Positions 692 through 18,595 of a stretch of DNA of 32,772 nt are shown here, piece after piece. The DNA is from Nitriliruptorales bacterium (lineage in GTDB: Bacteria > Actinomycetota > Nitriliruptoria > Euzebyales > Egibacteraceae). A model generated the notes under the pieces. The model was given only the letters and a program-made list of their open reading frames with translations. It ran no database searches and was not told the DNA's origin. A program made the position numbers and the translations under genes. The stretch spans positions 1 through 32,772 of the forward strand of contig WHTC01000009.1 of the NCBI GenBank assembly GCA_009379795.1, given 5' to 3'. Numbering within the stretch: the first letter of the stretch is position 1; every line of letters starts with the position of its first letter.

Positions 692-3232
692 ACCGGGCTG
701 GACGCCCGCGCGGTGGAGGCGCATCCGGGCCCGGACTGGTGCCGGGCGTGGACCGCCCATGTCGACGCGGCGATCAGCGGGTCTATCCGGGAACTCGGCG
801 CCGACCGTGGCATGGCCGTGGTCGCGCTGGGCAGCTATGCCCGCCGGGAACTGTGCCCCGGGTCAGACGTGGACCTGCTGCTGCTGCACAGCGGGTGGGG
901 CCGTGACAACCTGTCCGACCTCGTCAAGCGACTCTGTTATCCCCTGTGGGATGCCGGCCTGCAGGTCGGCCATGCCGTACGCACCCCCTCACAGACCGTG
1001 CGGGCCGCGTCCGAGGGGATCGACACCGCCACCGCACTGACCGACCGTCGCCTCGTTGCCGGAGACCGCGGCCTGTTGGACGAGCTCAGCAGCCGCGCGG
1101 TGCCCTGGCTGCGCCGTGGCGCCGGCCAACTGCTGGCCGACCTCACGGACGCCGACCGCCGGCGGCGCACCAAGGCGGGCTGGCGGCCCGGGATGGTGGA
1201 ACCGCACCTCAAGAACGGTGCGGGCGGCCTGCGTGACCTCCAGGGGCTGCGCTGGGCCGCCGCGTGCCTGCTCGGCGAGGTCGGCCTGGACCCGCTGGTC
1301 AGCGCCCGCTACCTGGGCGCCGCCGACCGGCGGGAGTTGGCCGCCGCCGGCGACACGCTGCTCGCCGTGCGCTGCGCCCTGCACCTTGTGCGTGGTGCGA
1401 GTCTCCGGCCACCGGGCAACGAGATCGACCGGCTCCGGCTTGATCTGCAGGACGACACCGCGGCGCGGCTGGGCGTCGGTGCCGGCGACGGCGCAGAACT
1501 GCTGCTGCGGGTCGGCCTGGCGACCCGCACCGTCGCGTATCTGCACGAGCGCACCTGGCCGGTGCTGCTCGAGGACGCGCGTGGCGGCCGGCGCTGGCTG
1601 CGGGCATCGCGGCATCCGTCGCGCCGCGCCGCCCAGCCCGGCTCGCCGGGCGAGGGGCTGCGCTGGCAGGACGGCGCGGTGGCCGTCGAGGAGAGCAGCA
1701 CTCTGGCCGCCGACCCCGCGCTGGCGATGCGTGCGCTGGCGGCCGCCGGGCAGCGAGGGGTGTCGCTGCACCGCCCGACCGCCGAGCGGCTGCGCCGCCA
1801 GATCGCCGGCGCGGGCACCCTCGCCTGGGAGGACGGCGCCCGCAGCGCGTTCCTGGCACTGCTGCGTTCTGGCGCGACCGCGCTGCCCGCGCTCGGCGAC
1901 GCCGACCACCTGGGCGTGCTGCCCGCCTACCTTCCGGCCTGGACGCGGGTACGGGGTCACCCCCAGCGCAACCCCTTCCACCTCTACGACCTCGACACGC
2001 ACCTGTACCAGACCGTCGCGGAACTGGTGGAGATCGGCCGGGGCCTGCTGGGGGAGCGCCAGGCGGCGCTGTACGAGCGGCTGGCTTCCGCCGACACCCT
2101 CCTGGTCGGGGCGCTGCTGCACGATGTCGGCAAGGCGTGGCCGGGGGACCACAGCATCGTCGGCGCGCGACTGGCTCGCGAGTGGGTCCCATCCCTGGGC
2201 TTCCCCGGCATCGACGGCGACCGCGTGGCCCGACTGGTCCGCCATCACCTGCTCCTGCCCGACGTCGCCACCCGCCGGGACCTCGACGATGAAGGGGAGT
2301 TGCAGGCGGTTGCCACCGCGGTCGGCGACATCGAGACCCTTGACGGGCTGTACCTGCTGAGCCTTGCCGACGCCCGGGCGACCGGTCCCTCGGCGCACTC
2401 GCCGTGGAAGGACGGGCTGCTCGCCGAACTGCACCGGCGTGTCCGCCGGGTCCTGGCCGGCGGCGTCGAGCCCGCGTTCCCAGGCGCGGCGGCCGTGGCC
2501 GCCGCGGCGCGCCACCAGGCGCCTGGAGACCACCGGGTCGAAACACTGCTGTCCTCCGTGGACCCGCGCTACCTGATCACCGCGGGAGTCACACAGGTGC
2601 TGGCGCACGCCCGGCTGGTTCAGCCGGTGCCGGCGCCTGGCGAGCTGCGCGCCGCCACCCGGGAGGGCCCCGCCGAGCAGACCGCCACCATCACCGTCGT
2701 CGCGGGTGACCGCCGCGGCCTCATGGCCATGTGCGCCGGCGTGCTCGCCGCCCACGGCCTCACCGTGCTCGACGCCCGAGCGTTCACGACCGAGGGTGGC
2801 ATCGCGCTGGACTGGTTCGCGGTCCGGCCGGGCAACGGGCTGGAGGGCGGGCCGGGCTGGCGGCGCGTCGAGGACGACCTGCGGCGCGCCGCCGCCGGGG
2901 ACCTCGACGTGGCGGCGGCGATCGCTGCGCGGGAGCGGCGCCGCGATGCGCGTCCCCGGGCGCTGGCTGCGCCCGTGCCGATCGACGTCACCTTCGACCT
3001 GCGAGTCGGCCTGTCCCGGATCGAGGTCCACGGGCCGGACACCCCGGGCCTGCTCTACCGTCTCGCCCGCGTGCTGTCGGAGGCCGAGGCTGACGTGTTC
3101 GGCGCGCGGGTGGCCACGCTCGGCCCTGAGGTCCGCGACGTCTTCTTCGTCCGGCTTGACCCCGACTCCGACCCGGACACCCGAACCGCGCTCGCTCTCG
3201 CCCTCCGCGACGCCGCCACGCCCCGCACTTGA
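686..3232 (+). CDS. glnD: [Protein-PII] uridylyltransferase/uridylyl-removing enzyme
   Basis: 848 aa. Nucleotidyltransferase motif GSYARRELCPGSDVDLLLLH, HD motif LLHDVGKAWPGDHS, two C-terminal ACT-like regions; follows glnB. Confidence 0.95.
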   Translation: MSTGLDARAVEAHPGPDWCRAWTAHVDAAISGSIRELGADRGMAVVALGSYARRELCPGSDVDLLLLHSGWGRDNLSDLVKRLCYPLWDAGLQVGHAVRTPSQTVRAASEGIDTATALTDRRLVAGDRGLLDELSSRAVPWLRRGAGQLLADLTDADRRRRTKAGWRPGMVEPHLKNGAGGLRDLQGLRWAAACLLGEVGLDPLVSARYLGAADRRELAAAGDTLLAVRCALHLVRGASLRPPGNEIDRLRLDLQDDTAARLGVGAGDGAELLLRVGLATRTVAYLHERTWPVLLEDARGGRRWLRASRHPSRRAAQPGSPGEGLRWQDGAVAVEESSTLAADPALAMRALAAAGQRGVSLHRPTAERLRRQIAGAGTLAWEDGARSAFLALLRSGATALPALGDADHLGVLPAYLPAWTRVRGHPQRNPFHLYDLDTHLYQTVAELVEIGRGLLGERQAALYERLASADTLLVGALLHDVGKAWPGDHSIVGARLAREWVPSLGFPGIDGDRVARLVRHHLLLPDVATRRDLDDEGELQAVATAVGDIETLDGLYLLSLADARATGPSAHSPWKDGLLAELHRRVRRVLAGGVEPAFPGAAAVAAAARHQAPGDHRVETLLSSVDPRYLITAGVTQVLAHARLVQPVPAPGELRAATREGPAEQTATITVVAGDRRGLMAMCAGVLAAHGLTVLDARAFTTEGGIALDWFAVRPGNGLEGGPGWRRVEDDLRRAAAGDLDVAAAIAARERRRDARPRALAAPVPIDVTFDLRVGLSRIEVHGPDTPGLLYRLARVLSEAEADVFGARVATLGPEVRDVFFVRLDPDSDPDTRTALALALRDAATPRT

Positions 3233-5192: not shown

Positions 5193-5735
5193 CTACACCC
5201 GGCCGCCGACGCCGGGGTCGCGCAGGTGGCGGGCCGCGGGGTCGTCGACGCGCGCGCCGCTGCGCGCCGCTGCCTCGCGGATCGCCTCCAGCAGCGGCTG
5301 CGGCCGGGCCCAGAACCACGGGTTGACACGCAGCGACGAGCCGTCGGCGTCGCGCAGGTGCAGCCACGTCGTCTCCACGTCGGCGTGGACGGCGTGGCGC
5401 TTGATGGGTCCGCGATGACCCTCGACCGCCACGAGGGCGTCAAGACGGACACGGCGAGCGCGCCAGGGCGGCAGCGACCGCACGGTGAGCCGCCCCTCCG
5501 TGTCCACGCGGGCGACCGCCCCCAAGCCCACGGCGAGCAGCCCCGCGCCAACGAGCGCTGCGCCGGCGGCGCCCAGCGACAGCGGGCCGGGCCCCGCGGC
5601 GCCGGCGACGGGAGGGGCCAGGGCTCGACCCAACCCCTCGATCATGCGGAGGAACGCCGCCAGCCCCAGGAACCCGGCTCCCATGGCCGGTACGAGCGCG
5701 GGCAGCCGCAGCCGGACGACCGGCCTCATGACCAC
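5193..5735 (-). CDS. Membrane protein, possible bacterial PH-like domain
   Basis: 180 aa, two hydrophobic N-terminal segments followed by a beta-rich stretch; collinear with neighbours. Start 5735 (GTG) or 5729 (ATG). Confidence 0.6.
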   Translation of the reverse strand: MVMRPVVRLRLPALVPAMGAGFLGLAAFLRMIEGLGRALAPPVAGAAGPGPLSLGAAGAALVGAGLLAVGLGAVARVDTEGRLTVRSLPPWRARRVRLDALVAVEGHRGPIKRHAVHADVETTWLHLRDADGSSLRVNPWFWARPQPLLEAIREAAARSGARVDDPAARHLRDPGVGGRV

Positions 5736-5736
5736 A

Positions 5737-6147
5737 TCACGGCCGCCGCGTGACGGCGGTCGCGCCGAGGGCGGCTGCCGCGGCGGCGACCGCGAGGCTC
5801 GCCAGCGACCATGTCACGGCGTCCCCGGAGCGGAAGCCGGCGACGGTGAGGATGACAAAGGTGGCCGTCGGGCCGGCCGCTCCTGCCAGCCGGCTCGGGC
5901 GCGCGCCGGCGCCGGCGCGCGCCGCCATCCAGGCGCCCGCCGCTCCGGCCACCATGACGGCCAGCGCCGCGGCGATCAGTACCACAGCCACGCCGGCCTC
6001 CGGCGACAGGCCGGCTCCGGCGGCCACCCGGGTCGCCGCCGGCTGCGCCAGCGCCAGCAGGATGAGGCAGGCGGCGGCGCCGGTGAGGAGGCCCCTGACG
6101 CGAGGCCGTCGCCGTGGTGCCGCGCGCTGTTCACCCAGTCTCGTCAT
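5737..6147 (-). CDS. Small multi-pass membrane protein, hypothetical
   Basis: 136 aa with about four hydrophobic segments; abuts 5193-5735. Confidence 0.6.
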   Translation of the reverse strand: MTRLGEQRAAPRRRPRVRGLLTGAAACLILLALAQPAATRVAAGAGLSPEAGVAVVLIAAALAVMVAGAAGAWMAARAGAGARPSRLAGAAGPTATFVILTVAGFRSGDAVTWSLASLAVAAAAAALGATAVTRRP

Positions 6148-6174: not shown

Positions 6175-6726
6175 TCACGCCTGCAAGCGCAGCGAGTCAA
6201 CGATCGTGCGCAGCACGTTCTCGTCGACGTCATCGGCAGGCCCGGCCGCCCGCAGGTTGACGCTGGCGCCGTCGTCGGTCAGCACGAGCAGGTCGAACTG
6301 ACGCATCGGCACGTCATCGTCCTCCAGGGGGACGACATAGCGGCTCTCCACGAGCATGGCGTCCTGGGCGCCGGCCACCTCAACCGGGTCCTCGCTGATG
6401 ACTTCCCGGTCCTGGAGCTGCAGGTCGGCATTGAGGTGGAACTGGTCGAGGTAGACGTCCATGGGCACGTCGTCGGGCAGGCCGGGGCCGCGCTGGGCCC
6501 GCACGCCGGTTCGAATGTCGCCGGTGCCCTCGGGCCCGAGGAACTCCACCACACCGGACTCCTCGCCGGGCTGCCGTTCCCAGCCGTCGGCGTAGAGGAA
6601 GGAGTGCCCGTCCGCCTGGTGCCGGGAGTAACCCTCCGGGTCGTCCGGTTCCTGCGCGCCGCCGGCCGATGAGCAGGCGCCGAGCAGCGCAGCGGCAGCG
6701 AGCACCGCCAGTCCACGAGCGGTCAT
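6175..6726 (-). CDS. Putative lipoprotein
   Basis: ORF trimmed to MTARGLAVLAAAALLGACSSAGG (lipobox LLGAC); about 183 aa. Confidence 0.75.
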   Translation of the reverse strand: MTARGLAVLAAAALLGACSSAGGAQEPDDPEGYSRHQADGHSFLYADGWERQPGEESGVVEFLGPEGTGDIRTGVRAQRGPGLPDDVPMDVYLDQFHLNADLQLQDREVISEDPVEVAGAQDAMLVESRYVVPLEDDDVPMRQFDLLVLTDDGASVNLRAAGPADDVDENVLRTIVDSLRLQA

Positions 6727-6775
6727 CTCAAGGCCTCCGGGTGGTCGTTCGGCCGGCAACGCAGGGCGGCGGGGA

Positions 6776-8128
6776 TCATCCGGTGCACGCCTGCCACGGT
6801 ACCAAGACGCGCTCGCCGCCCTGGGGCGCGTCGAGGTATTGCGCGTCGACGAGCCTCGTGTCGCTTGCGTCGTAGCCCAGGTCCAGCCCGAGCTTGGCGC
6901 CGAGCGCCACCTCGCCACCCGCGCCGAGTCCCCAGGTCTCCCCGTCGTACTCGGTGATGCTAACCGTGCCATCGTCCATGATCCGCTGTTGGTAGCCCTC
7001 CGCGGCCTCCAGGTAGCGCTCGACGCCGTCGGGCGTTCCGACGGTTGCCGAGGCGGTGAGCAGGTCCATCGCCGCGCTGCGGTTGCGCGGGTCGCGCAGG
7101 TCGAGCTCGGAGGTGACGGTGACGGTGTTGGTGCCCTCGGCACCGAAGTCCCCGCTGACGCTCCCCAGGACGTTGCCCGCATCGTCGAGCGTCATGCCGT
7201 TGCCGGAGAGCAGACCGCCCCGTCCGCTGGACGTCGAGTACGACGACTCGAGCTTGATCGGCTGGCCGTCGGCGTCCAGCGTCAGAGCGGCGGCGACGCC
7301 ACGGCCTTCCGAGCCACTGACCCCGAGGACCACGCCCGCGCTGCCACCGATCTCGCCGCTCAGCTCCAGGTAGAGGGTTGTCTCACCGGTCCGGCGGTCG
7401 TAGACGCCGCCGGCCACGGCTTCTCCCGACAGCTCCGCGCTGGCCCCGGCAGGACCAAGATCGACTCCGGCCGAGCCCGACGCACCAGCTACCGCCTCGA
7501 AGTACACCATGTCCGAGTCAGGCAGATCGGGGCCGCCGGTGACCAGGTCGACCACGCCGTTGACGATGCGCAGGCCGGGAGACAACGACTCCCCAGCCCG
7601 GCGAAGCGCGAGGTTGCGACGCTCGCTGATGAAGTCGTCGGCGGCGTCGGCGTCCTCGAACACCCAGGTCTCGCCGAGCCCGGCCCCAACCTCGACCGTC
7701 CCGCTGGCGAACGCGCCGGCACGCAGGTCACCGCTGGGCAGCTCGATGCCACCCCTCGCACCGATGCCGGCCGTGGCGCCGACGGTGCCCTCATCGAACC
7801 AGGTGACGTGGACGGTGCCGTCGGAGCGCTCCTCGCGCGTGTACCCCTCCCGCCCGCCGATCTCCACGAAAGTGATCCTCAGCGAACCTCCGATCGACCG
7901 GTCAGAGGTCGCGCGCACGCAGCTGTCCGGCTCGAAGGTGGTTTCTCCGGCGGAGCAGTCCTGGCCGATGATGGTGCAGATGACGGTCTTGATGCCCTCG
8001 GCGACGGCCGGGCCGATGGGACTGGCGACGATCACCGCGACCGTGACCGTGATGGCCACGAGCACTCCGAGGTACTCGGCGGTGACCTGGCCCCGTTGTC
8101 CCGCCAACCGGGCGCTCAGCGGTCCCAC
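6776..8128 (-). CDS. Flp-type prepilin fused to a large Gly-rich C-terminal domain
   Basis: GTG start at 8128 inferred; leader VGPLSARLAGQRG|QVTAEYLGVLVAITVTVAVIVASPIGPAVAEGIKTVICTIIG aligns along its length with the Flp pilin at 9140-9343, followed by about 390 aa with GxGxxGG-type segments. Overlaps the upstream gene by 13 nt. Confidence 0.8.
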   Translation of the reverse strand: MGPLSARLAGQRGQVTAEYLGVLVAITVTVAVIVASPIGPAVAEGIKTVICTIIGQDCSAGETTFEPDSCVRATSDRSIGGSLRITFVEIGGREGYTREERSDGTVHVTWFDEGTVGATAGIGARGGIELPSGDLRAGAFASGTVEVGAGLGETWVFEDADAADDFISERRNLALRRAGESLSPGLRIVNGVVDLVTGGPDLPDSDMVYFEAVAGASGSAGVDLGPAGASAELSGEAVAGGVYDRRTGETTLYLELSGEIGGSAGVVLGVSGSEGRGVAAALTLDADGQPIKLESSYSTSSGRGGLLSGNGMTLDDAGNVLGSVSGDFGAEGTNTVTVTSELDLRDPRNRSAAMDLLTASATVGTPDGVERYLEAAEGYQQRIMDDGTVSITEYDGETWGLGAGGEVALGAKLGLDLGYDASDTRLVDAQYLDAPQGGERVLVPWQACTG

Positions 8129-9108
8129 GGCACCAGCCAGACGTCGAACTCCGCGAAGCTGCCCAACCCGCCGGGGAACGCCCCGCCGGGGCCGAGCACG
8201 CCGCTCCGGCCGCCGCACTCCGGTCCGCTGGCCAGGGAGAAGTGGACGTAGTCGTCGGAGGGGAACGGCTGGCACAACCCGACCTGCCTGGCCACGGTGG
8301 CCAGCGCCGCGTGGTCAGGCGTGTCGATCGCCATGCCGTAGTTGTGCAGTGACATGCCCGGTGCGGCCACGCGGCCGCCCACCGGGTCGGTGATGGCCGC
8401 CTGGCACGCCGGCGTCCGGTGCCCCGAGCTGATCGCCAGACCGCGGCCGAGCAGGTCCTCGGCCCGCAGGATCGCGACCTTCATGTCGTCGGTCAGATGC
8501 GCCACGTCCACCTGGCCCCCGCCGCACCGCGCGCCGTAGCGACGCAGCGCCGAATCGTCCCGTACCGGCGCTCCTGCCCGGTCGGCCAGGAGCGCCAGCT
8601 CATCCTCCGGCAAGCCCGCGCCGGCGCCCGGCGGGCCGACGCTGATCGGCAGCCCCAGCGTGTAGGTGATCTCCAACTCGGCGCGGGCCCGCGCCCGCCC
8701 GCCCTGACCGGCGGTGTCCTCCAGACCCGACCCGCCGTCCATGCGCTCGGCCGACTCCACCTCCACCCGCACGTAGGGGCCGGACGGGTCGTAGTCGAAC
8801 GCGGTGAGCGTCCCGCCGTTGCGTTGCGCCCAGTCCGCTGCCGCCCGCCGGACCCTCCGCTCGTTCACCCCCGACGGGTTGATCAGCCCGAGACCGAGCA
8901 CTCCGCCCTCCAGTTGCGCGCGCACGTCCTGGGCGCCCGCCAACGCCGCGGCGTCGGCGGCCGTGACCGCCCCCGCCCGCAGCGTCGACGCCCACCCGAC
9001 CTGGAACAGCAGCACGCCACCGGCGAGCAGCGCCAGCGCCAGCAGGAGCAGCGCGGGCAGGACCTGCCCGCGCTCCCCCCGCGCCGCCACCACCAGTTGC
9101 CGTCGCAT
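8116..9108 (-). CDS. TadG-like pseudopilin fused to an M15 (VanY-like) peptidase domain
   Basis: 330 aa. N-term ERGQVLPALLLLALALLAGGVLLFQVGWASTLRAGAVTAADAAALAGAQ (TadG/TadE-like). C-term SSGHRTPACQAA...SLHNYGMAIDT...SDDYVHFSL matches SxHxxGxAxD plus [DE]xxH of M15 peptidases. Confidence 0.8.
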   Translation of the reverse strand: MRRQLVVAARGERGQVLPALLLLALALLAGGVLLFQVGWASTLRAGAVTAADAAALAGAQDVRAQLEGGVLGLGLINPSGVNERRVRRAAADWAQRNGGTLTAFDYDPSGPYVRVEVESAERMDGGSGLEDTAGQGGRARARAELEITYTLGLPISVGPPGAGAGLPEDELALLADRAGAPVRDDSALRRYGARCGGGQVDVAHLTDDMKVAILRAEDLLGRGLAISSGHRTPACQAAITDPVGGRVAAPGMSLHNYGMAIDTPDHAALATVARQVGLCQPFPSDDYVHFSLASGPECGGRSGVLGPGGAFPGGLGSFAEFDVWLVPWDR

Positions 9109-9139: not shown

Positions 9140-9343
9140 CTAGCCGCCGCTGCCCAAGATGTCCTGGATCATCTGGAGCACGCCATCGCGGATCTCGGTA
9201 CCGATGTCGGTGGTCGCCAGCACCCCGATGATCACCGCGACCACGACCACGATCCCCAGGTACTCTGCCGCGGTTTGGCCAGATTCCCGGCGCAGCCGCT
9301 GCGCCGCCATGGCCACCCTGTCGAGCATCTTCGTCACCATCAT
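9140..9343 (-). CDS. flp: Flp family type IVb pilin
   Basis: MMVTKMLDRVAMAAQRLRRESG|QTAAEYLGIVVVVAVIIGVLATTDIGTEIRDGVLQMIQDILGSGG. Class III leader with Glu+5/Tyr+6; AGGAGG upstream of the ATG at 9343. Confidence 0.92.
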   Translation of the reverse strand: MMVTKMLDRVAMAAQRLRRESGQTAAEYLGIVVVVAVIIGVLATTDIGTEIRDGVLQMIQDILGSGG

Positions 9344-9490
9344 CGCCACTGACCTCCTCGGGTCGTCACGCCGGCGCATCCAGCGCCGACCGTCACTGGC
9401 ACGCTACGCGGTCGCCCACCACGCGCCCAGAGCCGTAGGACCCAACTTCGGAAGCGAAAAGGGACCCACGCCGGCTGGGACCAAAGGCCT

Positions 9491-9537: not shown

Positions 9538-10756
9538 GGACGTAGGAGATGGATTCGCCGAAGCGCTCCCGGTAGCGATCCCGCGCGTCCTCCAGCTGCT
9601 CCTGGATCTCGTCTCGGAGCTCCAGACCGACCTCGCGGGCGGCGGTCCGTTGGTCCCGGACCCGGTTGGAAGCCGCATTGCGGATCTCGATGATCGCGCG
9701 CCGCTCCTCCTCGGAGTCGGCTTCCCTCGCCAGCTCGCTCATGCGCTGGTGGGCGGTGACCGACAGGCTCAGGTAGCAGCTGAAGACGTCGTTCATCTGC
9801 CCGATGACGCAGAAGAACTGGCTGAGCAGCGCCGAGTGGCGCTCGCGCTGCTTGTCGAAGTAGCCGCGCAGGTCGTCGCCGCTCTGCGCAGTGGTGTAGT
9901 CGCCCCCGGTGGCCTCGGCGATCGCGCGCAACTGGTCCTCATCGGCGGCGTCCACGCCGAAGCCGACGACATCGACGGTCACGTCGATCCCCTCGGCCGC
10001 CAGCGCCTCGGCGGCGGCGACCGGGTCGCCGTCGCAGGTCTCGATGCCGTCGCTGACCAGGATCACGCGGTTGGCGTCCTCGCCGCGGTCGGCGAACACC
10101 TCGCGGGCGGCTTCCAGCGAGCCGGCCACCGGCGTCCAACCGGTCGGCTCGAAGCTTTGCAGCACATCGGGGAAGGTCTCGAAGTCGACCTCGCCGACGT
10201 CGGCGAGCGTGTCCACGCCCGCGCAGCTCTCCGGGCGGTCGGCCTCCTGGTTCGAGCCGCGGTGGCCGTAGACCATGAACCCGATGTTGAACAGGTCCGG
10301 GGTGCCGGTGACGTAGCGCTCCAGCGCCTCCCGGGCCGCCTCCATCTTGGTCTGACCGCCGCCCGCGGAGCCGGCCATGGACCCCGACGCGTCCAGGATG
10401 AGCAGCAGGTTCTGCTCGCGCTCCAGCAGGTCGAGCGCCTGCACGCCGCCAGGCCCGGGGCAATCGATGTCGGCCGCGCAGTCGTCGACGGCGGGGTCGT
10501 AGCCCAGCTCCTCCTCGATGAAGTCGGGCACGAGGTTGCCGTCGGTGTCCACGGACCACTCCGGCCCGAGCGCCGAACCGGTCGGCTCGGGGCTGGGATC
10601 CTCGGGTGTGGTGGGGTCGGCAGTGGCGGTGGGGCTCGGCGGCGGGGCCGTCGGCTCGCTGTCGGGTTCGGCGTCCCCCCCGGTGCAGGCGGCCAGCAGG
10701 ATCGCGGCGGCCAGGGTCGCGGTCCAGCGTCGGCGGCCGGTGCGGGTCAGCGTCAT
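9515..10756 (-). CDS. VWA-domain lipoprotein associated with the Tad locus
   Basis: 413 aa. Lipobox ILLAAC, Pro/Thr-rich linker, MIDAS DASGSM, ILVSDGIETCDGD. ATGA overlap with the response regulator. Confidence 0.88.
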   Translation of the reverse strand: MTLTRTGRRRWTATLAAAILLAACTGGDAEPDSEPTAPPPSPTATADPTTPEDPSPEPTGSALGPEWSVDTDGNLVPDFIEEELGYDPAVDDCAADIDCPGPGGVQALDLLEREQNLLLILDASGSMAGSAGGGQTKMEAAREALERYVTGTPDLFNIGFMVYGHRGSNQEADRPESCAGVDTLADVGEVDFETFPDVLQSFEPTGWTPVAGSLEAAREVFADRGEDANRVILVSDGIETCDGDPVAAAEALAAEGIDVTVDVVGFGVDAADEDQLRAIAEATGGDYTTAQSGDDLRGYFDKQRERHSALLSQFFCVIGQMNDVFSCYLSLSVTAHQRMSELAREADSEEERRAIIEIRNAASNRVRDQRTAAREVGLELRDEIQEQLEDARDRYRERFGESISYVHCPALMA

Positions 10757-11400
10757 CGGTGGAGCTCCTCGTCGCGGCGCCCGACGCCGAGCCAGGCGGC
10801 GACCGCCTCACCCCGGCGGCGGACACCCAGCTTGGCGTAGACGTGGTTGAGGTGGTTCTTCACGGTCTTCTCGCTCACGTGCAGCGCGGCCGCGACCTCC
10901 CGGTTGGACCGGCCCCGCGCGACCTGATCCATCACCTCGGCCTCACGCGCCGTCACCCCCGCCGTCTGGGCGGCAGGGTGCTGGTGGCCGCCGCGCACCG
11001 CGGCGAACACCGCGGGTGCCACCGCGGGTGAGAGTACCGTCCGCCCTGCCGCCACATCCCGTACCGCCTGGACTAGGTCCTCGGGGCTGAACCGGCCATG
11101 AACCAGATACCCGGACGCCCCCGCCTGGATCGCCCGGGTCACCGACGTCTCGTCGGCGGCGTAGGTGAGCATCAGCACCTTGGCGTGCCGGCTCAGCGGC
11201 CCGGCGGTGCTGAGGCCGTCGCTGACCGGCATGCGCACGTCGAGCAGCACGACGTCGGGACGCAGTGCGCGGGCCATCACCACCGCCTGTTGCCCGTTGC
11301 CGGCCTGACCGACGACCGCCAGGTCGTCGTGCAGCCCGAGCAGCGCGGCGACGCCCTCGCGGATCACCGCATTGTCGTCAGTGATGAGCACGCGGATCAT
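10753..11400 (-). CDS. NarL/LuxR-family response regulator
   Basis: MIRVLITDDNAVIREGVAALL...VVLLDVRMP...GVTAREAEVMDQVARGRSNREVAAALHVSEKTVKNHLNHVYAKLGVR. Start trimmed to ATG at 11400. Confidence 0.92.
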   Translation of the reverse strand: MIRVLITDDNAVIREGVAALLGLHDDLAVVGQAGNGQQAVVMARALRPDVVLLDVRMPVSDGLSTAGPLSRHAKVLMLTYAADETSVTRAIQAGASGYLVHGRFSPEDLVQAVRDVAAGRTVLSPAVAPAVFAAVRGGHQHPAAQTAGVTAREAEVMDQVARGRSNREVAAALHVSEKTVKNHLNHVYAKLGVRRRGEAVAAWLGVGRRDEELHR

Positions 11401-12692
11401 GACCGCTCCGGGCGCCGGCGGGCGCGACGCGCCCGCCGGGGGGCGGGGATCTGCTGGAGGGCCGGCTCGGGTGGCGCCGCGGGCTCGGCGGCGGGAACGG
11501 TGAGCTGCACGCGGGTGCCGCCACCCGCCGCAGCCTCCACGGTCAGGCGCCCGCCGATCCGCTCGGCGCGCTCGATCATGCCCAGCAGACCGAAGTGACC
11601 GCCCGCGGCCAGCCGCTGCAGGTCGCCGACCTCGCTGGCGGTAGCGGCGGACTCGGGCAGGCCGCGCCCGTCGTCGGTCACCGTCAACCGCAGCTCGCCG
11701 TCGCCGCTGCCCAGCACCACCCGCACCGCCGCCGCGCCGGCGTGGCGCTCGACGTTGCAGAGCGTCTCCCGCAGGATGCACAGCACCTCGTACCGGTCCC
11801 CGGTCGACAGCGCCGGGGCCTCGCACGCTTCCGTGACCACCGCCACACCGCTCTGCTCGCTCCAGGCCGCGGCGTGTGCCCGGACCGCCTCGGCAAGCGG
11901 GCCGTCGAGTCGGTCGGCGCGCAGATCGCCGACGAGTTCTCTCGCCTCGCTGGCGGCCTGCTCGGCGGCGCGGGACAGCCCCTGGGCACGGACGGCGGCC
12001 TGCTCCGGCGCGCGCTCCACCCAGCCGGCCAGGGCGGCGGCGGACAGCGACAGTCCGTGCAGGGTCTTGATCAGCGAATCGTGCAGCTCCCGCGCCACGC
12101 GTGCGCGCTCGTCGGCGACCACCACCAACCGGCTGCGCTCGGCCAGGGCCGCCTCGGTGGCCAGCTGGCGTTCCAGCAGACCCCGCACCGCCGCTCCGGC
12201 GCCCGCGCCGATCGGGTACAGCACGGGAATGCCGAGGCTGTGGAAGCCCAGGGTGATACCGGTGACCGGGGCGTGGAGCACGACGGTCCACAGGTGCGCG
12301 CCGACGATGAGCGCGGCGAACAGGACCGCTCCCGTCCACCGGTAGAGGATCCCGGCGAGCAGCGCGCTCGACAGCGCGACGTACACCGCGGGGCTGACCG
12401 GGCCGGCCACAGCGAGGATGCCGAGCACGAGGACCAGGTCGGCGACGAGCAGCGACGGGTGGCTCAGCAGCAGCGGGGCCACCCGTTTCCAGGCGAGGAT
12501 CGGTGCGAGCGCCACCACCGCGGCGACGACCATCACCGCGCCGAGCACGGCGACCCCGGCGCCGCTGCCCCCCGGGAGCCACAGCACCGTGAGGAGGATC
12601 GCGATGAGCCGCAGGTCCAGCACCAGCCGGCACAGCGACGCGACCGGGTCACGGCGGGTGGGGGAGGAGACAGCGCTAGCCAAAGAGCTCAC
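11397..12692 (-). CDS. Sensor histidine kinase, NarX/HisKA_3 type
   Basis: 431 aa. Multi-TM N-terminus, RVARELHDSLIKTLHGLSLSAAAL, VTDDGRGLP ATPase motif; ATGA overlap with the regulator. Confidence 0.9.
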   Translation of the reverse strand: MSSLASAVSSPTRRDPVASLCRLVLDLRLIAILLTVLWLPGGSGAGVAVLGAVMVVAAVVALAPILAWKRVAPLLLSHPSLLVADLVLVLGILAVAGPVSPAVYVALSSALLAGILYRWTGAVLFAALIVGAHLWTVVLHAPVTGITLGFHSLGIPVLYPIGAGAGAAVRGLLERQLATEAALAERSRLVVVADERARVARELHDSLIKTLHGLSLSAAALAGWVERAPEQAAVRAQGLSRAAEQAASEARELVGDLRADRLDGPLAEAVRAHAAAWSEQSGVAVVTEACEAPALSTGDRYEVLCILRETLCNVERHAGAAAVRVVLGSGDGELRLTVTDDGRGLPESAATASEVGDLQRLAAGGHFGLLGMIERAERIGGRLTVEAAAGGGTRVQLTVPAAEPAAPPEPALQQIPAPRRARRARRRPERS

Positions 12693-13563
12693 CCAGGTTC
12701 ACGCCCGAAGCGATGTACAGGGCGACGATGATGAGCACGAGCGCACCGGGCACGATGAGGGTGGTCACCAGCAGACCGATCCGGGGAGCGGCCTGCGCGG
12801 CGCGTCGGCGCGCGTCCTGCTGGAACTCCCGGCGCAGGTCGACCGCGATGTCGGCGAGCGTGTCGGCCAGCGGCGAGCCGAGCTCTTCCGCCTGCAGCAG
12901 GGCGGTGACGAACGTGACCAGCGTCTCCGAGTCGTTGCGGGACCGCAGTTCGCTGAGCGCCTCACGACGGGGTGAGCCCAGGTCCATCTGGCGCAGGGTC
13001 AGCATGATCTCTTCGGCCAGCGGGCCGCCGAGCGCGTCGGCGACACGCGCGAGTCCCGTCCGGAAACCGGCGCCGGAGGCGACGATGACCTGGAGGATAT
13101 CGAGGAAGTCGGGCAGATCTCGCTGGATGCGCGCCTGACGGCTGCGGGCCTGGCGGGCCAGTGCGAAGTCGGGCATGAGCCAGCCGAGCACGCCGAACGC
13201 CACCACGAGCACGGCCGACCCGCCGGCCGCGGACAGCGCCAGGCCGGCCCCCGCGGCCATCACCGTCCACGCGCCCTTGCGACCCGCGTAGCCCTCCAGA
13301 GTCGTGGGCCGGCCGGCGGCGTCGATCCGGTGGCGCACGAGCGCCATCCGGCGCCGCCCGAGGAGCCGCAGCGTCCGCCGCGCCAGGCGGCGGCTCAGGG
13401 CCTCCATCAGCCGCCCGAGCACCGCGACTCGCGTTGCCTCGTCCGACTCGGCGACGCCGGTCATCCGCCGTGCCGCCGGGCTCGGGGCGCGCACCAGTTG
13501 CAGCCCGACCACGGCGACGGCGTAGCAGGCGACGAGCGCCAACGCGGGGACGGCCGGGTTCAC
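12676..13563 (-). CDS. tadC: Type II secretion system F domain protein, TadC-like
   Basis: 295 aa. ALARQARSRQARIQRDLPDFLDILQVIVASGAGFRTGLARVADALGGPLAEE... T2SSF pattern and TM helices; follows tadB. Confidence 0.87.
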   Translation of the reverse strand: MNPAVPALALVACYAVAVVGLQLVRAPSPAARRMTGVAESDEATRVAVLGRLMEALSRRLARRTLRLLGRRRMALVRHRIDAAGRPTTLEGYAGRKGAWTVMAAGAGLALSAAGGSAVLVVAFGVLGWLMPDFALARQARSRQARIQRDLPDFLDILQVIVASGAGFRTGLARVADALGGPLAEEIMLTLRQMDLGSPRREALSELRSRNDSETLVTFVTALLQAEELGSPLADTLADIAVDLRREFQQDARRRAAQAAPRIGLLVTTLIVPGALVLIIVALYIASGVNLGELFG

Positions 13564-14498
13564 GTCGTGATCCGGGTGGTCTGGCGGATGAGGACGAAGC
13601 CGGCGGTGTAGAGGACGCCGGCGATGATCAGCGCGAGCTGACCAAGCCCTGATCTGGTCATGTCCTCGATTACGCCGGGGCTGAGGGCGTTGAGCATCAG
13701 CAGACTGGCGGCGCCGAGACCAGCCACGATGTAGCTGGTGAACACCGACCCCGCCATGATCGTCCGCACCTCGCGTCGCAGGTCCTTGCGCGCGTCAAGG
13801 GTCTCGGCCATGTCCCGCAGCGCGCGGACGAGGTCGCCGCCAGCGCGCTGCTGAATCACGAGCGTGGCCACGAGCACCGACACCTCGCTGGACGCCATCC
13901 GCTGCTCCAGGTGCGTCAGCGCCTCCTCGACGGGGTAGCCCACCCGCAGCTCCTCGGCGACGTAGGCCAGCTCGGCGGCGGCCGGACCCTGCAGCTCCGC
14001 GGCGGCCATGTCGATCGCGCTGCGCAGCGCCAGCCCGGCCGAGGAGGCGTTGGACAGGATGCGCGCCACGTCGGGCAGTTGGGTGACGAGGACGTCGCGG
14101 CGCTTGCGCCGCTGGCGATCCAGCCACGCCCAGCAGCCCCGGACGCAGCCGGCGCCGACGGCCACCGCCAGCCACCAGGGCAGGATGAACCGGGCGATCA
14201 GCGTCCCCGCGATGCCTGCGGCGGCGGCCAGCCCGAGGAAGTCCGCGACGCCGAGCTCGACCCCCGCGGCGGCCAGCGTCTCCTCCAACCGGCGTCCGGG
14301 ACGGGTGCCCACCAGGAGGTCCTCGATCGCCCCGCGCACCCGCCGGCGGGCCCGCCGGCCAGCGGCCAGGCGGCTGCGCTCGGCGACGGCGGCCCTTTCC
14401 CGCCATCCCCGCTGGCACTGGTCGACGCCGGCGATGGCCACGAGCAGCACCGCCAACAGCAGCAGGAGCGCCGCCGCCGGGCTGGGTTCTGCGATCAT
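13560..14498 (-). CDS. tadB: Type II secretion system F domain protein, TadB-like
   Basis: 312 aa. LPDVARILSNASSAGLALRSAIDMAAAELQGPAAAELAYVAEELRVGYPVEEALTHLEQRMASSEVSVLVATLVIQQRAGGDL; T2SSF pattern. Confidence 0.88.
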   Translation of the reverse strand: MIAEPSPAAALLLLLAVLLVAIAGVDQCQRGWRERAAVAERSRLAAGRRARRRVRGAIEDLLVGTRPGRRLEETLAAAGVELGVADFLGLAAAAGIAGTLIARFILPWWLAVAVGAGCVRGCWAWLDRQRRKRRDVLVTQLPDVARILSNASSAGLALRSAIDMAAAELQGPAAAELAYVAEELRVGYPVEEALTHLEQRMASSEVSVLVATLVIQQRAGGDLVRALRDMAETLDARKDLRREVRTIMAGSVFTSYIVAGLGAASLLMLNALSPGVIEDMTRSGLGQLALIIAGVLYTAGFVLIRQTTRITT

Positions 14499-15829
14499 TC
14501 CGCCTCCCGCTCGGGCGCCTGGCCCCGCTCGTACAGGAATGGGTGGGGGATCGCGGCGCCCGCCAGCCGCAGGCGTCGCTCGAGCCCCTCCGGCAGCCGG
14601 AAGTGACGGAAGCGACCGGTCACCACCCGGTCGGAGGCGAGCGGGTCGGCGTCGAAGTCGAAGACGGTCGCCAGGCGGAAGCGCTCCCGGCGCCGCGAGG
14701 CGACCACGGCGATCTCGGCGACCCGGCGGGAGCCGTCCGGTCCCCGGGACAGGTGCACGATCAGGTTGAGGGCGCTGTTGATCTGGTCGCGCAGCGCCTC
14801 GAAGGTGATCGGCAGGTCGCTCATGGATGCCAGCGTCTCCAGCCGGATGACCGCGTCCTCGGCGGAGTTGGCGTGCACGGTGGTCAGGGAGCCCTCGTGG
14901 CCGGTGTTCATCGCCTGGAGCATGTCGAGGGTCTCGCCGCCGCGCACCTCGCCGACGACGATGCGGTCGGGGCGCATCCGCAGGGCGTTGCGGACCAGAT
15001 CCCGGATGGTCACCTCGCCCTCGCTCTCCACGTTGGGTGGACGCGACTCCAGGGAGACGACGTGCGGCTGCTGGAGCTGGAGCTCCGCGGAGTCCTCGAT
15101 GGTCACGATCCGCTCGGTGGCGTCGATGCAGCCCGACAGCGCGTTGAGGAACGTGGTCTTGCCGGTCCCGGTTCCGCCCGAGATGATGACGTTGCAGCGC
15201 GCGGTGACGGCGGCGGCGAGCAGTGCTCTGGCCGGCGCGTCCACGCTGCCCATCGCGACCAGCTCATCGAGGGTGTAGGTGGTGGGGAATCGGCGGATGG
15301 TGATGACCGGCCCGGACAGGGATAGGGGCGGGATGATCACGTTGACGCGCTCCCCGCCGGGCAGGCGGGCGTCGACCATGGGGCTGGACTCGTCGACCCG
15401 CCGGTTCACGGCGGCGACGATCCGGTCGATCGTCTGATACATCTGCGCCTCGTCGGCGAACCGCGCCTCGACCCGCTCCAACCGGCCGTCGCGCTCCACG
15501 AAGATGCTGTGCGGGCCGTTGACCATGATCTCGGTCACCGACTCGTCGGCGAGCAGCGGCTCGAGGATCCCCAGGCCCAGCGCCTCGTCGACGATCTGGC
15601 GGATGAGCGCGGCCCGCTCGAGGGTCGACAGCATCGGGCCGTCCCGGGTGATGAGGTGGCCGACGATGCGCTCGAGCCGGGCGCGGCGCTGGCTGGCGTT
15701 GAGCTGCGACAACTCGTCGAGGTCGACCTCCTCCAGCAGCATCGACCGGAAGCGGGCGACCGTCCCGCTGCGCTGCGGCAGCGCCTCCGGGGTCGCGTGC
15801 TGGGCGGCGACGCGGTCTTTCAGGCCCAC
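14495..15829 (-). CDS. tadA: CpaF/TadA-type secretion ATPase
   Basis: Walker [65 protein letters not shown] start at 15829 inferred from overlap (TAGTG) with the upstream gene. Confidence 0.95.
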
Positions 15830-16200
15830 TACGGTCCCCCGATGGCGTCCTCGTCGGGCAGGTGGGCGGTGCGACTGACCGTGAGCTGCTCGGCGGTGAC
15901 CTGCGGGACCAGGATCGGCGTGCGGACGCGTACCGTGACCTGGGCGCCGCCGGTGGCGCTGGCGTCGGCCCGGGGCTGCAGCCAGGTGGGCAACGCCTCG
16001 ACGGCGGCGGCCTCGCCGTCCTGGCCCAGGGTGGCGGCGCGGCTGCCGGTGCGCGCGGCGTTCTCCGCCGCGGTGACGCTGGCGGCCACCAGCAGCAGCT
16101 GCCAGGCCAGCAGCGCGGCGAGCAGCAGATAGGGCAGGATCCCGAGGAACTCCACCGAAGCGGCGCCGCGCGCCTCGCCAAGCCGGCGCCGGGCACTCAT
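15829..16200 (-). CDS. tadE: TadE-like pseudopilin
   Basis: MSARRRLGEARG|AASVEFLGILPYLLLAALLAWQLLLVAASVTAAENAARTGSRAA...; about 123 aa, Glu+5 after the candidate prepilin-peptidase Gly. Confidence 0.82.
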   Translation of the reverse strand: MSARRRLGEARGAASVEFLGILPYLLLAALLAWQLLLVAASVTAAENAARTGSRAATLGQDGEAAAVEALPTWLQPRADASATGGAQVTVRVRTPILVPQVTAEQLTVSRTAHLPDEDAIGGP

Positions 16201-17753
16201 CCGATCCCTCCCGCGATCGCCGGTGGGCGTGCGTTGGCCTGCTCGACGACCGTGCCCGCGCGAGCGGACACGTCGATCGGTGTGAGGAAGCGGCCAGGCA
16301 CGATGAGCGGCACCGCGAGCTGCACGGTGACATCGGCGGACCCGGGGTCCAGCCGCATGCTGTCGAGCCAGGCGGGCGGCAGGCTGGCGGCGGCCGCAGC
16401 CTCGATCTGCTCGGTGGCCGCACCGACCGCGAGCTCGCGGGCGCCCTCGCGCGCGGCGTGGCTGGCGAGCACGAACGTGAATCCCGCCAGGACGGCCTGC
16501 CACAGCAGCAGGACGACCACACCGATGGTGAACGCCAAACCCATCGTCTCCGCGGCGACGGAGCCGCGCTGCGAGCGCCAGCGACCCCGCCGGGCACGCT
16601 CGCGGGGAGCGATGAGGTGGAGCTCGGCGGCAAGCCCCGTCAGTCCCCGGCGTACCGGTCCGTCGGCGAGCCGCGCGGGCTTGCCGGTGTTCGTAGCCGC
16701 CTCCAGTGCCCGGAAGTCGGCGGGTATGGCCGCCTTGAGCACCGTGGCGTCGACCACACGCCGGACAAGGTCGGCCTGCACCTCAGAGTCCTTGCTCGCT
16801 CGGTTGACGACCACGCCGATCCCGTCCTTGCGGATCTGCAGGCGCTCCCATAGCGCGATGAGCCGGTTCGCGGCGCGCAGCGCCGCGACGTCGGGGGTGG
16901 TGACGACCACGACCTGGTCGGCGATCTCGGCGGCCATCGCCGCGGCCTCGGTCACGTACGAGCCGACATCGACGACGACGACATCGAAGCGTGAGCGGAT
17001 CGCGCCGAGCACCCGGCGGGCGACGTAGCCGTTGATGTACTCGCCGTGCTCGCCGTCCGGGGGCGGGAGCAGGATCCGCAGCCCCGTGGGGTACAGGTAG
17101 AGGCTCTCGTCGAGCTGCCGGGCGGTGAGCTCCTCGGCGACCTCGACAAGGTCCGCGATGCTGCGGCGATGGGTGAGGTCCAGAAGGCCGCGCACGTCAC
17201 CGGCCTGCAGGTCGAAGTCGATCAGGCAGACCCTGCGGTGGCGGGAGGCCGTCTGCGCCTCCAGCGCCAGGCGCACCGCGATCGTGGTGGCGCCGACGCC
17301 GCCCTTGGCCCCGGCGACTGCGAGCACTCGCCCCTCGAGCTGGTCCTCGGTGTCCTCCGCCGTGAGCCGCGCGCGCACCGCCTGCGCCCAGGCGGCCGCA
17401 CTCGCGACGGTGGCCTGCAGGTCCTCCAGTGACAGCGGCAGCGTGACGACCCCCCGGACGCCGGACTGCAGCGCACCGCGGAGCAGCCCCTGGCTCTGCT
17501 CGCGAGCCATGAGCACCACGGCGATGTCGGGGAAGCGGGTGGCGATCTCCCGGGCGAGGTCGAGCACCGGCAGGGGGCCGAGCCGCTCGTGCAGGCAGAC
17601 CGCGTCGACCTGCCGGTCCGTCAGGCCCTCCAGGATCGCCCCGGCGGTCGTGACCGCATCCAGGACGGTGCACTCGCCGCTCTCTTCGGCCAACGCCACC
17701 GCCTCCGACGCCTGAGCGGCGTCGGGCAGGCCGAACAGCACCCGGTACGTCAC
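16197..17753 (-). CDS. CpaE/TadZ-like ATPase fused in frame to a TadE-like pseudopilin
   Basis: 518 aa. Atypical receiver-like N-term, AGAKGGVGATTIAVRLALEA, CLIDFDLQAGDVRGLLDL, then SQRG|SVAAETMGLAFTIGVVVLLLWQAVLAGFTFVLASHAAREGARELAVG. No stop between the two parts. Confidence 0.88.
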   Translation of the reverse strand: MTYRVLFGLPDAAQASEAVALAEESGECTVLDAVTTAGAILEGLTDRQVDAVCLHERLGPLPVLDLAREIATRFPDIAVVLMAREQSQGLLRGALQSGVRGVVTLPLSLEDLQATVASAAAWAQAVRARLTAEDTEDQLEGRVLAVAGAKGGVGATTIAVRLALEAQTASRHRRVCLIDFDLQAGDVRGLLDLTHRRSIADLVEVAEELTARQLDESLYLYPTGLRILLPPPDGEHGEYINGYVARRVLGAIRSRFDVVVVDVGSYVTEAAAMAAEIADQVVVVTTPDVAALRAANRLIALWERLQIRKDGIGVVVNRASKDSEVQADLVRRVVDATVLKAAIPADFRALEAATNTGKPARLADGPVRRGLTGLAAELHLIAPRERARRGRWRSQRGSVAAETMGLAFTIGVVVLLLWQAVLAGFTFVLASHAAREGARELAVGAATEQIEAAAAASLPPAWLDSMRLDPGSADVTVQLAVPLIVPGRFLTPIDVSARAGTVVEQANARPPAIAGGIG

Positions 17754-18460
17754 GGGGACGCGGGGGGGTCGGGAACGGGCGCCCGGTAGCGCAGCCGCTC
17801 GGGAGGAACCGTCTCGGCGTCTCCGGGAGCGCGCAGGGCGAGGCTGACCTTCTGGGCGAAGCTGTCCGCGTAGGACAGGCGCAGGCTGTCCTCGATGCTC
17901 AAGGCGAACGTGACCGGGACAACCCGGTCGGGGCGGAACTCGTCCGCCGCGGGGTTGTCCTGGGCGACGCCGACGTCGATCACGCTCGCCTGTTGGACGA
18001 CGATCTCGGCCTGCGGTGGCTGCCCTTCCACGCCGGCGAAGGCGGCGTAGATGTCCACCACGGCTCCAGGGCCGACCTTGCCCGCGACGCCGGTCTCGGC
18101 GTCGACCAGCGTGGCGATCTCCCGCTGACCGGTCTCCAGGCTGGGCTCGGCCACGAGCATGCCCGGCTGCAGGAGCGTGCCGGGTTCCAGATCGCCTGTG
18201 GCGACTACGCCGAGCAGTTCCAGCGGGTCGCGCAGGACCCCCTCGGGCGCCCAGCGCTCGGGGAGGGACACCTGCTCGACCGCGTCGGGACCGACGGGCT
18301 CGAAGGCGCCCACCGGCGTCCGTACGTACAGGACCTCCGTCATCGGACCCACATGAGTGCGCACCTCGGTGACGTAGTTGGCGACGAGCACGAAGACCCC
18401 GATGGCCCCTACGACGGCGAGGGCCAGCAGCAGGACTCCTCGGCGCTGGCGTGGATTCAC
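17750..18460 (-). CDS. cpaB: CpaB/RcpC-like Flp pilus assembly protein (SAF domain)
   Basis: TM segment, then VLYVRTPVGAFEPV...GVVATGDLEPGTLLQPGMLV...GKVGPGAVVDIYAAF. Start 18460 (GTG) or 18511 (GTG) unresolved. Confidence 0.8.
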   Translation of the reverse strand: MNPRQRRGVLLLALAVVGAIGVFVLVANYVTEVRTHVGPMTEVLYVRTPVGAFEPVGPDAVEQVSLPERWAPEGVLRDPLELLGVVATGDLEPGTLLQPGMLVAEPSLETGQREIATLVDAETGVAGKVGPGAVVDIYAAFAGVEGQPPQAEIVVQQASVIDVGVAQDNPAADEFRPDRVVPVTFALSIEDSLRLSYADSFAQKVSLALRAPGDAETVPPERLRYRAPVPDPPASP

Positions 18461-18595
18461 CCGGCCCCCCGGGGCTCGTAGCAGGACAGGAGCCACCAGC
18501 TCCCGTGGCACACAGCGGTCATGACCTCCTCACGAATGGATCCGCTGGTGGCAGGAAGCGAGGCCCACGGCACCCGCCTCCTCGCCAAGGGCAGC

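Follow-up and report, generated by a model that had tools for sequence, protein, structure and literature searches.

A Flp pilin module fused to a large C-terminal domain in an actinobacterial Tad locus: a candidate envelope-acting effector with a lipoprotein partner

The Tad locus and its long Flp protein

The window, meaning the whole stretch of 32,772 nucleotides that was analysed (contig WHTC01000009.1 of a Nitriliruptorales bacterium), holds a Tad pilus locus whose genes, from the CpaB-like one (18511) through to DUF192 (4836), are all encoded on the minus strand. The gene order runs CpaB, TadZ, TadE-like, TadA, TadB, TadC, histidine kinase, LuxR regulator and vWA lipoprotein, and continues with Flp, a TadG-like protein with an M15/VanY-like tail, a long Flp protein called FlpLong here, a lipoprotein, a transmembrane (TM) protein, a second membrane protein and DUF192. 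The features are as follows:

12676..18511, minus: Tad assembly genes (TadC, TadB, TadA, TadE-like, TadZ, CpaB), named from reading the translations
10753..12692, minus: LuxR-type regulator and histidine kinase within the Tad locus, conserved in loci L017, L018 and L026
9515..10756, minus: vWA-domain lipoprotein of the Tad locus (PF00092, E 1.2e-8)
9140..9379, minus: canonical short Flp major pilin
8116..9108, minus: TadE/G-like minor pilin with M15/VanY-like C-terminal domain (PF13400, E 1.4e-4; M15/VanY weak)
6776..8128, minus: FlpLong, modular Flp protein of 450 aa (leader, residues 1-13; Flp module, 14-58, ending in C51-x6-C58; beta-rich C-terminal domain, CTD, ~62-450)
7955..8128, minus: class III (prepilin) leader and Flp helix of FlpLong with terminal Cys pair (Flp-module HMM E 8e-21, from an alignment that already includes FlpLong)
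6779..7945, minus: CTD of FlpLong, beta-rich and putatively effector-like, with no Pfam or PDB sequence match
6175..6729, minus: lipoprotein (lipobox LGAC) downstream of FlpLong, proposed immunity protein
5737..6147, minus: multi-TM protein, downstream; TM genes hold the same position in homologous cassettes
5193..5735, minus: membrane protein, PH-like by eye, no Pfam match

The pair of LuxR regulator and histidine kinase likely regulates the pilus. The TadE/G-like protein immediately upstream of FlpLong has counterparts at L017:5379-6392 and L026:16-1002 and also in L018; SGxRTPxxQ, HNxGxAxD and VHF-type motifs are kept in three of the four proteins and degraded in L018. Carried on such a pilin, a peptidoglycan peptidase domain of M15/VanY type could clear a way through the cell wall for the pilus. 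Genes similar to the membrane protein at 5193..5735 also lie near FlpLong in L015, L020 and L021.

The original prediction held that FlpLong, once processed, aligns with the full length of the neighbouring mature Flp (9140-9379) and then continues for about 390 residues. Both parts are borne out: residues 14-55 align with that Flp without gaps (15/42 identities), at a score reached by 0/5000 full shuffles and by 0/5000 shuffles of the part after the motif, and some 392 residues follow beyond Flp length. The protein has the signature of Flp/Tad prepilins, with a short charged leader, the predicted G-1, E+5 and aromatic Y+6, and a hydrophobic helix, and a prepilin peptidase gene lies elsewhere in the same genome (PF01478, E 1.3e-15). 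No Pfam Flp_Fap match to FlpLong exceeds the cut-off; the neighbouring canonical Flp is also below it, so this result weighs little either way. The start codon is a GTG at 8128 that overlaps the stop of the upstream TadG-like gene (8116-9108), and it is credible because homologues with an in-frame stop close upstream (L015, L018) keep the short leader: that of L015, with its site, reads MWVSERG/QTAPEYVG, and that of L018 has at most ~22 aa. A longer start is thereby excluded as the general case, which disposes of the concern, raised with the original prediction, that a wrong start might leave the leader untranslated.

The C-terminal domain and its lipoprotein partner

A search of 101 relatives returned the same architecture in other genomes at ~30-36% identity, and profile searches extended the family to genome families f41 and f76 and to Streptomyces, where 36 of 199 sampled genomes have a match (full length in 34); 63 named Streptomyces loci were collected with the Streptomyces alignment. 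The window-type profile and the Streptomyces profile align from end to end (hhalign 99.7%, E 4e-27), and by these matches the CTD is a widespread actinobacterial family. The several cysteines first noticed are exactly four (51, 58, 70 and 448), all conserved in the family and kept in 62-63 of the 63 Streptomyces sequences; a GAGxGxxG motif, likewise claimed at first, is absent from the protein. In the genome-contig scan the window protein by itself gave no match, and a family alignment (A1) proved too divergent to serve as query.

No family had been recognised in the CTD from the letters alone, and none matches it among Pfam, NCBIfam or PDB sequences; a profile search of PDB with the FlpLong alignment gave nothing convincing. 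Matches of the window protein to OXA-9 and glycosidases (NCBIfam/Pfam) are noise. The AlphaFold model of the CTD of a Streptomyces meridianus homologue (56 alignment rows; pLDDT 73, pTM 0.66) has twelve strands of 16-25 residues and a few helices, in line with the beta-type segments of the original prediction; the window protein, modelled with rows from Streptomyces, came out poorly (pLDDT 41) and was left out of the fold search. Foldseek comparison of the S. meridianus model with PDB and BFVD gave no global fold match. The best PDB matches were outer-membrane barrels (FadL, CymA), at E 3e-4 at best, with which the modelled CTD would share local runs of long antiparallel strands; it is, however, not the same fold (TM-scores ~0.2-0.4, rmsd mostly >15 A), and the likeness appears limited to local strand geometry. 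Identity as a porin or pore former was rejected on the same grounds of no global match and low TM-scores. Hydrophobicity alternates along the strands above chance (p 0.001), although Gly, Ser and Thr abound in them.

The original prediction would have been undermined had the CTD proved to be a standalone family with a non-pilin signal, and this is partly the case: in two genomes the CTD occurs without a pilin module. In Streptomyces genome G222 it sits on a different, WXG/ESX-like N-terminus (L218:1504-3222, minus; also L236), in a gene whose neighbours encode an FtsK/SpoIIIE ATPase (E 8e-60), a protein with a sub-threshold WXG100-like match and a relative that has an N-terminus of the same style; in actinobacterial genome G372 it follows a zinc ribbon and a multi-TM N-terminus (L223:952-3072, minus). 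The fusion itself stands, and these cases mark the CTD as an apparently exchangeable domain; as far as gene architecture can tell, a domain that moves from one export N-terminus to another behaves like an effector. Equivalents of Cys 70 and Cys 448 are both lost in G222, and this joint loss suggests that the two pair with each other.

In Streptomyces the lipoprotein downstream is an obligate partner. It occurs in all 34 of the sampled Streptomyces genomes with full-length FlpLong and in 0 of the 165 others (199 genomes), and it lies downstream of FlpLong in 62 of the 63 named Streptomyces loci, the remaining locus ending at a contig edge, and in 20/20 loci of a smaller Streptomyces set. Most other homologues of the class and of genome family f6 also have it, L017 being without; the f41 homologues have no lipoprotein downstream. 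Immunity genes usually also occur as orphans; no orphan of the lipoprotein was clearly seen in the 199 Streptomyces genomes, with one possible case in a draft of 1300 contigs. The lipoprotein matches no known immunity family, a profile search of PDB gave nothing convincing, and some members of its family show weak DcrB/PsbP-like similarity. Analysed beside the sister fusions described below, it is probably an immunity protein.

The same Flp module on other cargos

The original prediction had proposed an HMM search for other long-extended Flp N-termini; run with the Flp-module HMM on the loci examined, it yielded 19 plain Flps and 42 different long fusions, whose mature proteins have 200 aa or more. 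The cargo-bearing Flps are marked by a Cys pair that closes the module, present in 38/42 long and 1/19 short ones (Fisher 1e-10). The recognisable cargos are as follows:

L016: RNAse_A_bac (CdiA-CT) with PT-HINT (Pfam)
L064: EndoU_bacteria (Pfam)
L065: PT-HINT (Pfam)
L103: Tox-REase-5 (Pfam)
L062, L069 (Pfam), L073, L074 (by eye): RHS
L023, L061: Peptidase_C2, calpain (Pfam)
L027, L067, L072, L102: Abhydrolase_8, a DUF1023-type hydrolase (Pfam)
L060: DUF6782 metallopeptidase (Pfam)
L070: Peptidase_M4 (Pfam)
L114: GDSL lipase (Pfam)

The set as a whole thus combines one N-terminal module with many exchangeable toxin domains, as polymorphic toxins do, and one closed, single-contig chromosome (G039) encodes seven long fusions of different kinds. 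RHS cargos reach 1400 aa. Flp fusions of two genomes (L117:3169-4155, minus, and L119:2012-2992, plus) share a domain unmatched in Pfam (YxQYWxYYP...DDWE), and two others (L066:5311-6657, minus; L071:3667-4287, plus) have low-complexity tails rich in Asp/Ser or Gly/Ser after the Flp module and no folded cargo.

The genes that follow these fusions differ with the cargo. After the RNase A fusion, and overlapping it by 4 bp, comes the gene of a CdiI_2 immunity protein (E 2e-10); behind the Tox-REase-5 fusion lies that of an Imm52-like protein (E 0.0016, short of Pfam's curated cut-off). The partner of the RNase A fusion is no lipoprotein, and those after the EndoU, HINT and L063 (uncharacterised cargo) fusions also have no lipobox. 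Judged by these domain matches, several Flp-module proteins are plain toxin-immunity pairs. Membrane proteins, one with a bPH domain, follow two RHS fusions. Mutually unrelated lipoproteins follow two Abhydrolase_8 fusions, one calpain fusion and both metallopeptidase fusions, with short overlaps in four of these five pairs; the L023 calpain fusion has no obvious partner. Cargos expected to act on the envelope come with lipoproteins, and FlpLong likewise; because its partner follows the pattern of these sister cargos, the comparison suggests that the FlpLong cargo, too, acts at the cell envelope.

The fusions also track a particular Tad lineage: in the class sample, long fusions occur in 9/11 genomes with the TadB clade of the window (E <1e-46) and in 0/55 others (Fisher 1.5e-9, uncorrected for descent), and in Streptomyces a Tad-locus gene lies within ~3 kb in 26/63 FlpLong loci. 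Alignment, distribution and neighbourhood show the FlpLong fusion to be real, conserved and linked to Tad. In 15 Streptomyces loci a 4-TM protein has a gene of its own downstream of the lipoprotein gene, and in most other Streptomyces loci a 4-TM segment (36-39% identity) is fused in frame before the Flp module. Where it is fused (L142-L181 and others, in the in-frame region before position 3001), the 4-TM segment precedes the module and the prepilin site falls in an internal loop; in this clade the FlpLong chain may stay membrane-bound.

Modular pilins and polymorphic toxins are among the known systems that come close. Modular type IV pilins (Streptococcus sanguinis PilB and PilC; Pelicic group) consist of a small pilin module and a bulky C-terminal domain, were surveyed among type IVa pilins via IPR012902, the N-terminal T4P pilin motif, and are usually adhesins (PMC8179133). 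FlpLong resembles them in its class III signal and in the functional domain that would be grafted C-terminally to a small pilin module, and with an extra, distinct domain after its pilin module it is, on this evidence, a modular or decorated Flp pilin with a large, presumably extracellular domain, as originally predicted. The FlpLong set differs in that its carrier is a Flp (Tad, T4cP) module and its cargos include nuclease toxins with immunity genes; the words Flp and Tad are absent from the main text of PMC8179133. Polymorphic toxin systems, whose trafficking modules were catalogued by Zhang et al. 2012 (PMC3482391), are alike in their exchangeable C-terminal toxins, PT-HINT, RHS and adjacent immunity genes, and unlike in that the trafficking module here is a Flp pilin; the words Tad and pilus are absent from the portion of that source available. 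No earlier report of Flp- or TadE-fused polymorphic toxins was found in the open-access literature, and the Flp-module toxin set is apparently undescribed so far.

Interpretation and significance

We read FlpLong, with a probability of roughly 0.55, as a Tad-borne modular pilin that carries an envelope-acting effector domain and is accompanied by a lipoprotein partner, probably for immunity. The class III leader would direct the protein to the membrane, the prepilin peptidase of the genome would cut it after Gly13, and the Flp helix would enter, or be extruded by, the Tad machine of the same locus, so that the CTD would end up outside the cell. There the CTD would most likely act as an envelope-acting antibacterial effector, possibly a membrane-active one given its long amphipathic beta strands, while the adjacent lipoprotein would sit on the cell's own membrane and protect it. 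FlpLong would then be one member of a wider group of 'Flp-polymorphic toxins', in which a Flp module with a Cys pair carries RNases, nucleases, proteases, hydrolases or RHS cores and most members have a downstream partner gene. A broader claim must be made more tentatively, at somewhat less than even odds: that actinobacterial Tad pili are contact weapons which display or deliver Flp-borne toxins, and that the CTD represents a new toxin fold, all-beta and acting on the envelope, to which the lipoprotein gives immunity.

The original prediction left the CTD as adhesin or toxin-like, and it is the former that offers the strongest alternative. Under this account the CTD would be a ligand-binding domain on Tad pili, with the lipoprotein, together with the TM protein, as a partner in assembly or anchoring instead of an immunity protein. 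It has in its favour the usual adhesin role of modular type IVa pilins (PMC8179133), the position of the FlpLong gene inside the Tad locus, the strict linkage to the lipoprotein with no clear orphans, and a CTD family that shows one conserved type instead of polymorphism and occurs singly in f41 genomes. However, RNases and nucleases with immunity genes ride on the same Flp module, and pilus adhesion would make no sense for the CTD that sits on another N-terminus next to a type VII locus. We consider an adhesin unlikely, and favour an effector because of the toxin-bearing Flp relatives with their immunity genes and the obligate lipoprotein partner; it counts against the effector that no member of the CTD family matches a known toxin, that the lipoprotein belongs to no known immunity family and is missing downstream in f41, that orphans, which would have spoken for immunity, were not clearly seen, and that the window protein itself gives a poor model.

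Less probable still is that the Flp helix is a mere membrane anchor, cleavable or uncleaved, for surface enzymes and domains that never join a pilus. The four TM segments in frame before the module in one Streptomyces clade, and the bulk of the largest RHS cargos for a filament, would fit such an anchor, but prepilin site and Flp helix length are retained, and the fusions follow a particular Tad clade, many of them in or beside Tad loci. An artefact, whether a wrong start or a chance resemblance to Flp, to which the GTG inside the upstream gene and the MAG-like draft assembly of the window (511 contigs) might have pointed, can be dismissed as already refuted, with homologues of independent genomes sharing architecture and short leaders, shuffles never reaching the alignment score, and the module HMM (its alignment including FlpLong) giving E 8e-21.

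The effector reading, in which the CTD is a toxin, appears the best of these on sequence evidence, and the display or delivery of toxins appears to be a use of Tad/Flp pilus machines. The N-terminal export module defines the class of a polymorphic toxin; if the reading is true, the Flp pilin as such a module would add Tad machines to the polymorphic toxin list, single-membrane bacteria would gain a pilus-based route for the delivery or display of toxins, and the unexplained large pilins with lipoproteins in some Tad loci would be accounted for. The Myxococcus Kil system, a Tad-like machine, is required for contact killing, and its authors leave toxin secretion by Kil open and, in the portion of the source available, report no pilin-toxin fusion (PMC8460266); whether Tad machines deliver toxins would now become a testable question. 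Tractable Streptomyces carry the FlpLong-lipoprotein pair, among them S. griseus, S. globisporus and strain SirexAA-E, with part of the loci adjoining Tad genes.
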